64,000 bases of DNA from Actinomycetota bacterium (lineage in GTDB: Bacteria; Actinomycetota; UBA4738; HRBIN12), in the NCBI GenBank assembly GCA_035697485.1, contig DASSCU010000025.1:52705-116704 (forward strand), read 5' to 3'. Position numbers and translations under genes: made by a program. Position 1 is the first letter of the stretch. Each line of letters begins with the position of its first letter. The notes beneath the pieces were generated by a model. It did no database searches. It was not told the origin of the DNA and saw nothing but the letters and a program-made list of their open reading frames with translations. Below are positions 2,780-17,301 of the stretch, in pieces.

Positions 2780-3609
2780 CTCGACAGCCCGCGATCACCG
2801 ACCTGCTGCGACCCGACGGTGAGGGGGCGATCCTGCCCGGCATCGACCCGCGCTCGACGCCGGGCGTCGACGACCGCGGGGCCGCCGAGGCCGAGCTGCC
2901 GGCGCTCGCCGATCGTCTCGACGAGCTGCAGGAGCGGCTCTGGGTCGAGAGCTCGCGCTCGCTCCTCGTGGTGCTCCAGGGGATGGACACGAGCGGGAAG
3001 GGCGGCACGGTGCGCCACGTCTTCTCGTCGATGAACCCGGCCGGCGTGGAGGTCGCATCGTTCAAGAAGCCGACCGAGGAGGAGCTCGCCCACCACTTTC
3101 TGTGGCGCATCGAGCAGCGGCTGCCGCTGCCCGGCGAGGTGACCGTCTTCGACCGCTCCCATTACGAGGACGTGCTCGTGGTCCGCGTGCGCTCGCTCGT
3201 CCCCGAGGACGTCTGGCGAGCCCGCTACCGGGAGATCGTCGCGTTCGAGGAACGGGTCGCCGCCGCCGGTACGACGATCGTGAAGTGCATGCTGCACATC
3301 TCCTACGACGAGCAACGGGAACGACTGCTCGCCCGCCTCGACGACCCTTCGAAGCACTGGAAGTTCCACGAGGCCGACATCGAGGAACGGACCCGCTGGC
3401 AGGACTACCAAGCAGCGTACGAAGCCGCGATCCGGGAGTGCTCGACCGAGACCGCCCCCTGGTTCGTGATCCCGGCCGACCGCAAGTGGTACCGGAACTG
3501 GGCGATCTCGAAGCTGATGGTCGAGACGCTCGAAGCCATGGATCCGCAGCTGCCTCGGCCCGACCTCGACGTCGAGGCCCTGAAGGCGAGGCTGCAACCA
3601 CCGAACTGA
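2776..3609 (+). CDS. Polyphosphate kinase 2 family (polyphosphate:nucleotide phosphotransferase)
   Basis: This is a cytoplasmic PPK2-family enzyme that transfers phosphate between polyphosphate and nucleotides. It has 277 residues, the usual single-domain length. The Walker A loop is GMDTSGKGG at residues 69-77, the Walker B region includes VFDRSHYEDVLVVRV, and the lid module contains KHWKFHEADIEERTRW. The same frame is open far upstream, but ATG 2776 is chosen because it overlaps the permease stop as ATGA and matches the family N-terminus. The location downstream of a polyamine importer is unusual; no direct functional link is known to me. Nucleotide preference cannot be told from sequence alone. 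Confidence 0.92.
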   Translation: MTRQPAITDLLRPDGEGAILPGIDPRSTPGVDDRGAAEAELPALADRLDELQERLWVESSRSLLVVLQGMDTSGKGGTVRHVFSSMNPAGVEVASFKKPTEEELAHHFLWRIEQRLPLPGEVTVFDRSHYEDVLVVRVRSLVPEDVWRARYREIVAFEERVAAAGTTIVKCMLHISYDEQRERLLARLDDPSKHWKFHEADIEERTRWQDYQAAYEAAIRECSTETAPWFVIPADRKWYRNWAISKLMVETLEAMDPQLPRPDLDVEALKARLQPPN

Positions 3610-3671: not shown

Positions 3672-4265
3672 ATGCGCGCCAACACGGTTCGGACGTTCGC
3701 CACACTCGCGCTGCTCGGCCTCGTGCTCGCGTCGTGCTCGAGCCCAGAGGGAAGTGAGGCGGGCCCGGCGCCATCACGGTCCGCCGAGGACTCGGCCGCC
3801 GACGCCACGCCCGGACCCACGGGCAGCGTTGAGGGAGGCGGCGAAGGCGGAGGAAGGGTGCCCGAGGTCTTGCGCTTCTCCGCCCCGCGACTCGGCGGTG
3901 GCACGGTCGAGGGCGAAGACTTCTCCGGCGAAGACGTCGCGCTCTGGTTCTGGGCGCCGTGGTGAACGACGTGCCAGGGGGCCGCCCCTGAAGTCGCGCG
4001 GGTCGCGCGAGCCTACGAGGACGAGGTGGCCTTCGTCGGGGTGCCGGGCAACGACGATGCCGAGAACATGCAGGCGTTCGTCGACGAGTTCGGGCTCGGG
4101 TTCCCACAGGCCGTGACCGAGGACGGTTCCCTCTGGGCGCGGTTCGACGTCGCGTATCAGCCTGCGTGGGTGTTCGTCGACGACTCGGGCGAGACCACCC
4201 TGGTGCCCTACGAGTTGCCCCGGGCCGAGCTCGAACGCGTGCTCGACGACCTGATCGCGACCTGA
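3672..4265 (+). CDS. Mpt53/DsbE-like thioredoxin-fold lipoprotein, predicted selenoprotein (UxxC)
   Basis: This is a secreted thiol:disulfide oxidoreductase read through an in-frame TGA at 3963-3965 as selenocysteine, giving 197 residues with Sec at 98. Residues 1-22 form a lipoprotein signal with lipobox LASC. A Gly/Ser/Glu-rich linker follows, then a TlpA/thioredoxin fold. The active site reads WFWAPW-U-TTC, so Sec replaces the first Cys of WxPWCxxC and the resolving Cys101 is intact. Downstream the same frame continues without a break through AFVGVPGN and the cis-Pro segment YQPAWVFVDD to a TGA at 4263. Both halves resemble mycobacterial Mpt53/DsbE proteins, which have Cys here. A hairpin directly after the TGA supports recoding. 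The alternative is a nonsense mutation or a base error at that codon. The start ATG has no clear Shine-Dalgarno sequence. Confidence 0.82.
3967..3996 (+). other. Putative bacterial SECIS element
   Basis: A stem-loop starts one base after the in-frame TGA at 3963. The lower stem is CGAC (3967-3970) with GTCG (3993-3996). An internal loop GTGC/AA follows, then the upper stem CAGGGG (3975-3980) with CCCCTG (3985-3990). The apical tetraloop is GCCG (3981-3984), and its first base is a G lying 16 nt after the TGA. This matches the known layout of bacterial SECIS hairpins, which recruit SelB within the coding region just 3' of UGA. Folding was done by eye only. Confidence 0.7.
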
Positions 4266-4281: not shown

Positions 4282-5247
4282 TCAGCCCTCGAGCTCGTCG
4301 GGCACGTCGACGAGTGACCACCCGAACAGCCCTCCGACCACGAACCCGAGCCCACTCACGGTGCCGTGCAGCTCGAGCATGCGCGTGACGGACAACGTGT
4401 AGTCACCGCTCCATCGTCCGAAGGCGAACTGGACCGCGAGCACCAGCGCGAAGAGCAGGGACCCTGCCGACACGACGAGGAGGGCGGTCGACCCGGCGGT
4501 GCGGCCACGGTGCATCGCGCCCATGAGCATCACCACGGCGAGCACGAGCAGCGCTCCCGACAGGAGCAGCGACCCGACGACGTCGAGAACGCCTCGTTCG
4601 CTCACGAGCCCGGCGGCGAGCACCGGGATCGCCACGACGGTCACGACGCCCGCCGCGCCGGCCACCGATCGCGGGCGGCGCCTGGTCGCTGCGGCTCGGG
4701 TCCGGTCCGCGACGATCGCCGCGCCGAACCCCGCGAACGTCAGGTGCACAGCGGCGAGCGCGACGCGGGTGTCGGAGAGCCCCATCGGGCGCAGCTGCCC
4801 TCGCCAGGCAACGAGGCTCGCCGCCCCGAGGGCGAGGAGTACGAGCCCTGCGACGGGAACGATCAGCTTGGCGCGCGGCGACGGGCCGAGCACCACCCAT
4901 CGCACACCGGCCCACAAGGCGATCCCCGTCACCACGACCCACGGCGCCGTGATCCACGCCGACATCGCCCCCGGTTCGGCCAGGATGCTCACGACCACGA
5001 GCACCCCAGCGGGCAAGGCGAGGAGTCGGGCGAGGGCCAGCGCCTGCTCCGGCCCCCCGGCCGGTGGGCGCACCAGCGCCAACCCGAGCGGCACGACGAC
5101 GAGCGGCCCGACCAGCCAGAGCCCCTCGAGCAGCCCGATCCGCTCCGAGAGCGGGCCGGTCGCGAGCGCGAAGATCGCGACCCACACGACGGTCCCGACG
5201 ATCGCGTCGAGCGGCGGGCCAGATAACGATCGACGGGCGGCACTCAT
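4282..5247 (-). CDS. YndJ-like polytopic membrane protein
   Basis: This is an integral membrane protein of about 321 residues with roughly nine to ten hydrophobic segments and short charged loops such as RTRAAATRRRPRS. Its composition and C-terminal pattern (a histidine in LELHGTVSGLGFVVGG) resemble the YndJ family, whose function is unknown. The ATG at 5247 shares one base with the stop of the upstream epimerase-like gene (TGATG), so the two are co-translated. The gene converges on the selenoprotein gene with 16 bases between stops. The family assignment is moderate; no catalytic motif is seen. Confidence 0.7.
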   Translation of the reverse strand: MSAARRSLSGPPLDAIVGTVVWVAIFALATGPLSERIGLLEGLWLVGPLVVVPLGLALVRPPAGGPEQALALARLLALPAGVLVVVSILAEPGAMSAWITAPWVVVTGIALWAGVRWVVLGPSPRAKLIVPVAGLVLLALGAASLVAWRGQLRPMGLSDTRVALAAVHLTFAGFGAAIVADRTRAAATRRRPRSVAGAAGVVTVVAIPVLAAGLVSERGVLDVVGSLLLSGALLVLAVVMLMGAMHRGRTAGSTALLVVSAGSLLFALVLAVQFAFGRWSGDYTLSVTRMLELHGTVSGLGFVVGGLFGWSLVDVPDELEG

Positions 5248-6236
5248 CAGCGTCCGCTCGCGTGCCAAGCGGCGAGCAGTGAGCGCTCGCGGTCGGGGTC
5301 GAGTCCCGCCTTCATGACGCCCTGGGGTCGCGTGCGATCCCAGGCGAGCGTATCCCGCACCGTCTCGATCGGCGCACGGCACGTCAGGCCGGCCTCGAAC
5401 GCCCGGCTCGGATCGTACGCGTGGAAGCCCGGTGCCTCGGGCCACCAGAGCGGGAACGCCTCGTGCGGATCGTCGGCCTCACCCTCGAAGGCTTCAGCGA
5501 TGAAGGCGTCGTCGACCCACGCTACTCGCGTGTCGGTCCCGGCCGCAGCAGCCGCCTCACCGATCAGGCCCCCCAGGGTCATCGTCGGAGCTCGATCGAC
5601 GACGCCGTACACGCCGGGCGTGGCGCCCTCGGCGAGGGCGAGCACGAACGCCGCCAGATCCCGGGCATCGACCCACTGCAGGCCGTAGTCCGCCGGCGCG
5701 GGTGCAAGCATCTCCCCCCCGGCCGCACCTCGACGCACCCAGGAGGTGAAGCGGTCGGTCTGGTCGTGAGGACCGACGATGAACCCCGGGCGGATCACGC
5801 AGGCTCGGTCGCCGAAGACGTCGATGACCTCCCGCTCACACGCAACCTTCAGCGGCCCGTACGTCTCGTCGGTCACATCCTCCGTGTCGGGGAACGGTTG
5901 CTCGAACGTCGGCGAGTCCTCGGTGCCGCCCGGCGGCAGGTCCTCGGGGTGCGCCGAGAGCGACGAGATGAAGCCGTACCAGCCGCTCCCGGCGAGCAGC
6001 TCCGACGACGAGCGCACGGCCCGAGGCACGTAGCCGCACGTGTCGACCACTGCATCGAACGAGCGACCCGCGAGCGCGTCGACCCCCTGTTCCCGGTCGC
6101 CGATCACGTGCTCGGCCTCGGGGAACAGCTCGGTCGGGGTGCGATGGAACAGCGTGACCTCGTGACCGCGTTCGATCGCGAGCTCGCTGAGCGCGCGGCC
6201 CGAGAACCGCGCGCCGCCGATCACCAAGAGCTTCAT
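5247..6236 (-). CDS. NAD-dependent epimerase/dehydratase (SDR) family protein
   Basis: This is a cytoplasmic Rossmann-fold protein of 329 residues. The N-terminal MKLLVIGGARFSGRALSELA is the dinucleotide loop of atypical/extended SDRs (GGxxFxG form). FDAVVDTCGYVPRAV and the later RPGFIVGPHDQTDRF match the group of small nucleotide-sugar epimerase-like reductases found in actinobacteria. The catalytic YxxxK is represented by YGPLKVACE. It is the first gene of a two-gene unit with the downstream membrane protein. The substrate is unknown; reduction of a sugar or isoflavone-like ketone is possible. Confidence 0.85.
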   Translation of the reverse strand: MKLLVIGGARFSGRALSELAIERGHEVTLFHRTPTELFPEAEHVIGDREQGVDALAGRSFDAVVDTCGYVPRAVRSSSELLAGSGWYGFISSLSAHPEDLPPGGTEDSPTFEQPFPDTEDVTDETYGPLKVACEREVIDVFGDRACVIRPGFIVGPHDQTDRFTSWVRRGAAGGEMLAPAPADYGLQWVDARDLAAFVLALAEGATPGVYGVVDRAPTMTLGGLIGEAAAAAGTDTRVAWVDDAFIAEAFEGEADDPHEAFPLWWPEAPGFHAYDPSRAFEAGLTCRAPIETVRDTLAWDRTRPQGVMKAGLDPDRERSLLAAWHASGR

Positions 6237-16335: not shown

Positions 16336-17301
16336 TCAGGCCGTGCCGATCGGGTCGCTGGAGAGGTCACCGCGCACCGGTCCGAGGGGTTCGCCGAGCT
16401 TCGACGCGACCCGGTCGAGCCTCGCGACGTACACATAGATCTCGTCTCGCAGACGCTTCGCGCGGTCGCTGAGGCCGTGCAGGTCGGCGAGCTTCCAGTG
16501 CTTGTCGAGGATCGGCCGCAGCACTTGGTCGTGATGGATGCGCAGGTTGTAGATGCCGGCCTGCGCCATCGCCTTGGCCTTCTCGCGGAAGCCCGGGATG
16601 CCCGCGCCGGGCATCGCGAAGTTCGTGATCTGGCGGTGCATCGCCTCGACCATCGCGTCCGGGTCGAGCTCGATCGCGCTCACCGCCATGTCGCGGTAGA
16701 AGACGTAGTGCAGGTTCTCGTCGGTGGCGACGCGCGAGCACAGCTTCTCGGCCGACCCGTCGTCGGTGCTCGCACCGGTGTTGCGGTGGGAGATGCGGGT
16801 CGCGAGCTCCTGGATCGTGGTGAATACGACCCCGTCGAGCGGCCCCTGTTCGGCGAACTCCGGATACCAGCCGCGGAGCGCCTGATCCATGCGTCCCTGT
16901 TCGAGCAGCGTGGGGTCGACGCCACGCGTAACCGTGAGGTAGTCGCGCAGCACGATCGCGTGACGGCCCTCCTCGGCCGTCCAGCGTCGGACCCACTCTC
17001 CCCAGGCCTCCTCGTCGCCGAACGTGCGCCAGAGGCTGAGGTGGTAGTAGGGAAGGTTGTCCTCCGTGAGCAGGTTGACCTCGAGAGCCGTCTGCGCCAC
17101 GTCGGGGAGCCGTGAGTCGGCGGCCTGCCAGGGCTCCTTGATGAAGTTGCGGCCCTCTTCATAGGGCACGTAGTCGTGCGGCATCCACTCCGAGGTGGTG
17201 GCCACGTGGCGGTCGAGAGCGGAGCCCACCTGGGGCATCAGCTCGTGCAGGATCGCCTCGTTGGACATGCGGGGTGCGCCCGCTCCGTTCGCTGACGTCA
17301 T
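16336..17301 (-). CDS. Acyl-ACP desaturase (ferritin-like di-iron)
   Basis: This is a soluble di-iron fatty-acid desaturase of the plant stearoyl-ACP desaturase / mycobacterial DesA2 family, 321 residues. Iron ligands are visible in WTAEEGRHAIVLRDYL (EExxH) and RVATDENLHYVFYRDM (DExxH), with an earlier glutamate in EVNLLTEDNLPYY. It should introduce a cis double bond into acyl-ACP using O2 and ferredoxin. It is transcribed divergently from a flavin oxidase / DUF1365 / cyclopropane synthase operon. That operon would modify the double bond made here, so shared control is likely. Confidence 0.92.
   Translation of the reverse strand: MTSANGAGAPRMSNEAILHELMPQVGSALDRHVATTSEWMPHDYVPYEEGRNFIKEPWQAADSRLPDVAQTALEVNLLTEDNLPYYHLSLWRTFGDEEAWGEWVRRWTAEEGRHAIVLRDYLTVTRGVDPTLLEQGRMDQALRGWYPEFAEQGPLDGVVFTTIQELATRISHRNTGASTDDGSAEKLCSRVATDENLHYVFYRDMAVSAIELDPDAMVEAMHRQITNFAMPGAGIPGFREKAKAMAQAGIYNLRIHHDQVLRPILDKHWKLADLHGLSDRAKRLRDEIYVYVARLDRVASKLGEPLGPVRGDLSSDPIGTA

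Follow-up and report, generated by a model that had tools for sequence, protein, structure and literature searches.

In an actinobacterial genome, the TGA at codon 98 of a gene located in the 64,000-nucleotide stretch of DNA analysed here (the window) replaces the first active-site cysteine of a DsbF/Mpt53-type thioredoxin-fold protein. We put the probability that this codon is read as selenocysteine (Sec), with insertion likely guided by a hairpin at 3994–4010, at roughly 0.88. The first-pass annotation, made from the sequence alone, had inferred a Sec form of a secreted Mpt53/DsbE-type oxidoreductase, and this main inference is strongly supported by Sec/Cys exchange among relatives, by the Sec machinery, and by kinship in sequence and fold, DsbF being included. 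The features of the gene are listed in Table 1.

Table 1 Features of the predicted selenoprotein gene (positions are those of the window).
Feature	Position	Strand	Basis
Predicted gene for a DsbF/Mpt53-like selenoprotein of 197 residues (Sec98)	3672..4265	+	Sequence, family and fold matches
Likely signal peptide of a lipoprotein, with LASC at its end; predicted lipidated Cys = residue 22	3672..3737	+	Sequence; alignment
TGA predicted to encode Sec98, first Cys position of CxxC	3963..3965	+	Same column in 37/37 TGA-bearing homologues
TGC, Cys101, partner of Sec98 (UxxC)	3972..3974	+	Invariant in the 48-row alignment
Two-part hairpin of the first-pass annotation; overlapping, and incompatible with, class A	3967..3996	+	−16.6 kcal/mol
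Upstream stem-loop, which in the window co-folds with class A; register not conserved	3975..3990	+	−22.3 kcal/mol jointly; 1/32 in register
Class A hairpin, likely SECIS: stem 3994–3999/4005–4010, loop GGGTC 4000–4004, 34 nt after the TGA	3994..4010	+	Covariation; −10.5 kcal/mol

The TGA codon, its column among relatives, and the protein family

The gene starts with ATG at 3672, carries the internal TGA at codon 98 within WAPW-TGA-ACG-ACG-TGC, and ends with a terminal TGA at 4263–4265. The mechanical list of open reading frames halts this frame at residue 97. As the first-pass annotation had stated, the TGA lies at the first Cys of a WxPWCxxC motif and 99 codons stay open beyond it, with no further stop before 4263; its coordinates and frame were confirmed. 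The GC content by codon position past TGA 3963 was 0.747/0.434/0.909, matching that of the adjoining polyphosphate kinase 2 (PPK2) gene (0.715/0.437/0.915), so the post-TGA half of the gene looks coding. The open frame by itself is weak evidence, because 98 or more open codons follow the TGA in 75 of 253 long TGA-ending frames of the 64-kb window. It is the position of the TGA, not the openness of the frame, that exceeds chance, since every TGA-bearing match has its TGA in one column. The gene is flanked by PPK2 (2797–3609, + strand) and a YndJ-like protein (4282–5253, − strand). Across the whole window, the sole Rfam match at gathering scores was ASdes, which Rfam names a TB small RNA, at 16904–16971 (+ strand; 52.6 bits, gathering 40).

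We compared 37 TGA genes, including that of the window, from 36 Actinomycetota genomes, and all 37 had the TGA in the first-Cys column of WxPWCxxC. Thirty-two of them came from phylum-sample loci and five from a later search of another class; together they represent 11 coded families, or 10 without one divergent row (L161). Profile mapping of the fetched loci (124 genes) gave 32 TGA, 83 TGC and nine TGT codons in the first-Cys column, and no other stop was found in the aligned domain of any of these genes. The five later genes each had one TGA only in the match, in the same column (5/5). The full set compared 37 TGA with 100 TGC/TGT codons in one column, 80 Cys-control loci having come from a pattern scan of genome contigs in which the pattern required a Cys codon. 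The first-pass annotation had suggested aligning homologues for Cys/Sec exchange at residue 98 and had named random stops in them as a point against its reading; TGA and TGC/TGT were found to share one column, and the relatives carry the same TGA instead of random stops.

In the phylum sample of 396 genomes, 47 had a match at E ≤ 1e-20, with a TGA inside the match in 31 and none in 16; the match in one genome (G139) spanned two TGA codons, only one of them in the aligned domain. Within the window's class, seven of 27 genomes matched at E ≤ 1e-15, and the best two besides the window's (G017 and G023) had one TGA each. In another class (66 genomes), 26 matched at E ≤ 1e-20, 20 of these with a TGA match, and five of the genomes were new. 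Of the 17 genomes in the coded family to which the window belongs, 16 matched at E ≤ 0.001, and the TGA gene was present only in the window's genome; in the one genome of the same genus, all homologues were Cys forms (best E 4.2e-13). Among 57 database homologues, five stop exactly at WFWAPW, and gene calls thus likely truncate members of the Sec family. None of the 120 matches listed of 692 in a profile protein search was called a selenoprotein, most of them being unnamed. Two weak distant matches with stops, G011 C14:3949–4386 (one TGA, two TAG; E 6.7e-6) and G009 C30:2953–3279 (one TGA; E 8.5e-4), are possibly decayed or spurious. The divergent row L161 (from G056) is a WESW-TGA-PVC redoxin with its TGA at locus nt 801, and its genome has both tRNA-Sec and selA; it fits neither of the hairpin classes described below and may represent a Sec redoxin family of its own.

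The window protein matched the Pfam families AhpC-TSA, Redoxin, Thioredoxin and Thioredoxin_8 above their cut-offs, and Thioredoxin_2 below. Its closest solved relatives by sequence were DsbF (111 bits) and Mpt53 (90 bits). The AlphaFold2 model had a mean pLDDT of 85.6, with all blocks of ten residues beyond residue 60 at ≥94, and Foldseek ranked DsbF and Mpt53/DsbE (PDB 3ios and 1lu4) first and second, the former with a TM score of 0.94 by target and 46% identity. The protein is therefore kin to the DsbF/Mpt53 type in sequence and fold, with an active site predicted to be UxxC rather than CxxC: mycobacterial DsbF and Mpt53/DsbE are its best matches in fold and sequence and share the WxPWCxxC site, whereas the window gene has TGA as the first active-site Cys codon. 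The alignment made for the structure model had 48 rows, with 47 of the 57 database homologues; the ten omitted included the five truncated ones and P0002. In these 48 rows Cys22 was nearly invariant, and under the lipobox rule LASC is read as a putative lipidation site at this residue. The window protein exceeded the cut-off of no NCBIfam model. Two NCBIfam thioredoxin-fold models have a U motif in their names, like the predicted site here, but the protein belongs to neither, scoring 18.1 of the 300 bits needed for WAxxUGC_long (NF041054) and 13.4 of the 100 bits needed for redoxin_TUGYCR (NF053656).

Hairpins downstream of the TGA

Two hairpin classes were first spotted by eye in the TGA genes, followed by a scan of in-register helices of 5–6 pairs ranked by their occurrence in TGA minus Cys genes; class A topped the scan of all such helices. 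Counted from the T of the TGA, class A pairs nt 32–37 with 43–48, and class B pairs nt 22–24 and 26–29 with 34–37 and 39–41, leaving a GGTC loop at 30–33 that sits eight bases closer to the TGA than the class A loop. In the first set, class A was complete in 18/32 and class B in 10/32 TGA genes, and both in 0/92 Cys genes. In the full set, 21/37 TGA genes had a complete A (6/6 pairs) and 11/37 a complete B (7/7), so that either hairpin was complete in 32/37 TGA genes vs 0/100 Cys homologues. Synonymous-codon shuffles of the 37 TGA genes gave either hairpin in 2.6/37 on average and at most 8 (1000 runs), shared ancestry inflating the shuffle figures as well as the Fisher values given below. Four of the five later genes had a complete hairpin and the fifth had 6/7 pairs. 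The five misses in the full set were L043 and L155 (A, 5/6), L157 and L171 (B, 6/7), and L161 (neither).

In the class A alignment (23 genes), 98.6% of 138 cells were paired and 15 cells had both sides changed, neither value being reached in any of 500 shuffles; in the class B alignment (13 genes), 86.5% of cells were paired and nine had both sides changed (0/500 shuffles). Rows were sorted into A or B by their own pairing before these counts, which raises the paired percentages; neither the Cys-gene comparison nor the synonymous shuffles carry this bias. Two of the five measures for A (pairs and types) and the pair types for B (45/500) were not above shuffles. Compensatory pairs included C-G/U-A and G-C/A-U/U-A, and on our reading several of the hairpin changes join a silent substitution in one codon to an amino-acid replacement in a second codon. 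The class A loops were AGGTT (7), AGTTG (6), AGGTG (5), AGGTA (2) and GGGTC (1), and the class B loop was GGTC in 11/11. Relative to synonymous shuffles, the folding energy of the TGA genes had a mean z of −0.61, with 4/32 below −1.5, and class A in the window alone was marginal (p 0.065). With local folding energy unremarkable, the case for the hairpins rests on register and covariation.

The bacterial SECIS consensus given in the legend to Fig. 2 of PMC13188914 has a loop of 3–9 nt, a stem of 4–16 bp, a G within the first two positions of the loop, a distance of 16–37 nt from the UGA, and a minimum free energy of at most −7.5. The hairpin at 3994–4010 falls within this figure's ranges (loop GGGTC, 6 bp, 34 nt, −10.5 kcal/mol). 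Its single-sequence fold adds one pair, giving 7 bp and a GGT loop 35 nt from the TGA.

The first-pass annotation had assigned the SECIS role to a different structure, a two-part hairpin starting just after the TGA, and it is conceivable that Sec is inserted by means of that hairpin while the downstream one is incidental. The structure can indeed be drawn (CGAC 3967–3970/GTCG 3993–3996 and CAGGGG 3975–3980/CCCCTG 3985–3990), with a G at the first position of its GCCG loop. Its folding energy, however, is no better than that of shuffled sequences (z −0.13 to −1.62 in four windows), and its upper stem is complete in 1/32 TGA genes, that of the window only; 51.3% of its cells are paired, with covariation not above shuffles. 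Its loop lies 15 nt from the UGA, just outside the 16–37 nt of the published figure, and the more stable joint fold of the upstream stem and class A (−22.3 vs −16.6 kcal/mol) excludes it. Relatives commonly have a local stem of a different register (nt 16–20/24–28), which is complete in 10/32 TGA and 1/92 Cys genes and paired in 76.5% of cells in A3, so the upstream stem may still matter. We regard the two-part hairpin as an improbable SECIS: the drawing stands, but the hairpin is private to the window within the set and competes with the conserved one at 3994–4010, and the earlier assignment is set aside in favour of the latter.

On balance, we favour the view that one Sec family shifted its hairpin inside the coding sequence, the candidate SelB loop lying 34 nt from the UGA in some genes and 26 nt, as GGUC, in others, across ten coded families; this spacing may be set by the upstream stem, whose register shifts. 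If so, these genes would amount to a natural experiment on the distance over which a bacterial SECIS may shift and still recode UGA. Covariation backs both positions as candidate SECIS elements of a single gene, which makes the SelB spacing rule directly testable.

Sec machinery and proposed function

The assembly of the window's genome is 3.41 Mb and 95.6% complete. It encodes tRNA-Sec (74.2 bits; ARAGORN also calls tRNA-SeC), adjoining selA and selB (504 and 322 bits), and selD (383 bits); the four sel genes that the first-pass annotation had proposed looking for are thus all present. The fdhA of this genome (L206, G000 C33) has a TGA at the classical Sec site, CNRT-U-HAP, its family match of 619 bits being below the cut-off of 666. 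Both fdhA and the window gene have a hairpin past the UGA with a GGU-containing loop, but the loop is GGUCU at 18 nt in the fdhA SECIS and GGGUC at 34 nt in the window gene.

In the phylum sample, tRNA-Sec was found in 26/31 TGA genomes vs 7/16 Cys-only genomes (237/396 overall), selA in 29/31 vs 8/16, and either of the two in 30/31 vs 9/16. The Fisher p values were 0.007, 0.001 and 0.001, respectively, uncorrected for kinship. A tRNA-Sec match was missing in five of the 31 TGA genomes, and the one without selA as well was G023, which is 73% complete. In seven genomes (G105, G174, G251, G261, G280, G307 and G385), the gene shares a contig with selA or tRNA-Sec, at a distance of ~20–65 kb; in the window's genome, selA and tRNA-Sec are on contigs other than that of the gene.

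The combined evidence also bears on the idea that the gene is a pseudogene with a true stop, or that the TGA is a miscalled TGC. Many of the genomes with TGA genes are drafts and the weak distant matches G011 and G009 carry stops, but the same TGA codon recurs in 37/37 genes from 36 genomes, including the single-contig G055, G073, G130 and G232, the 32 mapped TGA genes have no second stop in the aligned domain, the window gene keeps its coding signal past the TGA, and complete hairpins mark TGA rather than Cys genes, all of which makes such an error very unlikely. It is just as unlikely that read-through or a variant genetic code puts some other residue at the TGA: the database protein P0002 has Trp at the Sec/Cys place (WAPWWIPC), possibly because its gene was called with a table that translates TGA as Trp, but TGA terminates both the window gene and PPK2, the 47 aligned homologues all have Cys in this column (P0002 being outside that set), and the Sec machinery is present in the window's genome.

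With Sec as the favoured reading of codon 98, SelB carrying Sec-tRNA-Sec would bind the loop of the 3994–4010 hairpin, 34 nt downstream of the UGA, and deliver Sec at this codon. The gene would then encode an exported, likely membrane-anchored lipoprotein in which Sec98 would attack substrate disulfides or oxidised thiols and Cys101 would resolve. The genome has a CcdA-like (DsbD_TM) match (37.2 bits, cut-off 27.1), and we would guess that this protein might supply electrons to the Sec protein. In a rough ORF comparison of 13 neighbourhoods (12 relatives and the window), no gene neighbour was common to more than two, and some of the matches common to two loci were antisense to the gene.

Relation to published selenoproteins and evolution of the family

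UxxC selenoproteins have been published as ‘Redoxin family protein’ (PF08534) and ‘Prx-like thiol:disulfide oxidoreductase’ (PF00578) in Table 1 of PMC13188914, and Sec redoxins with UxxC also appear in PMC2398784. The UxxC redoxins of PMC13188914 resemble the window protein, as predicted, in having Sec first in UxxC and a redoxin domain, the window protein passing the Pfam cut-offs of both PF08534 and PF00578; the sections of that paper compared name no Mpt53/DsbF-type actinobacterial lipoprotein, the comparison being by description only, with overlap possible. The first-pass annotation was aware of no described Sec form of this secreted family. This holds in the literature searched, with the qualification that generic UxxC redoxin selenoproteins are published: within the accessible parts of the sources, no Sec form of the DsbF/Mpt53 family and no two hairpin positions were described, and the ‘Redoxin family protein, UxxC’ label may overlap. 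The search returned no paper pairing selenocysteine with Mpt53 and, among the matches listed, none with DsbE or DsbF. Portions of PMC9312934, PMC12013277, PMC1088965, PMC1794560, PMC5029168 and PMC12421883 were also compared. Against these partial sources, Sec redoxins are already known, and the two-position hairpin of DsbF/Mpt53-type genes is unusual. The genes probably add an extracytoplasmic selenoprotein family to Actinomycetota.

A quick tree of 95 rows (37 Sec and 58 Cys, the contig-scan Cys loci thinned to every second) was built from few columns and placed 24 Sec genes, including that of the window, on one branch (support 88, not starred). It needs at least four Sec/Cys changes and is compatible with one or several origins. 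The class B gene L157, on a long branch, groups among class A genes. One genome (G174) holds two Sec genes, and another (G169) has a tandem pair (L057) in which a TGC gene (WAPWCSVC) is followed by a TGA gene (WAPF-TGA-SVC). Such Sec/Cys sister genes, the tandem pair included, allow the benefit of Sec in a DsbF-type enzyme to be measured.
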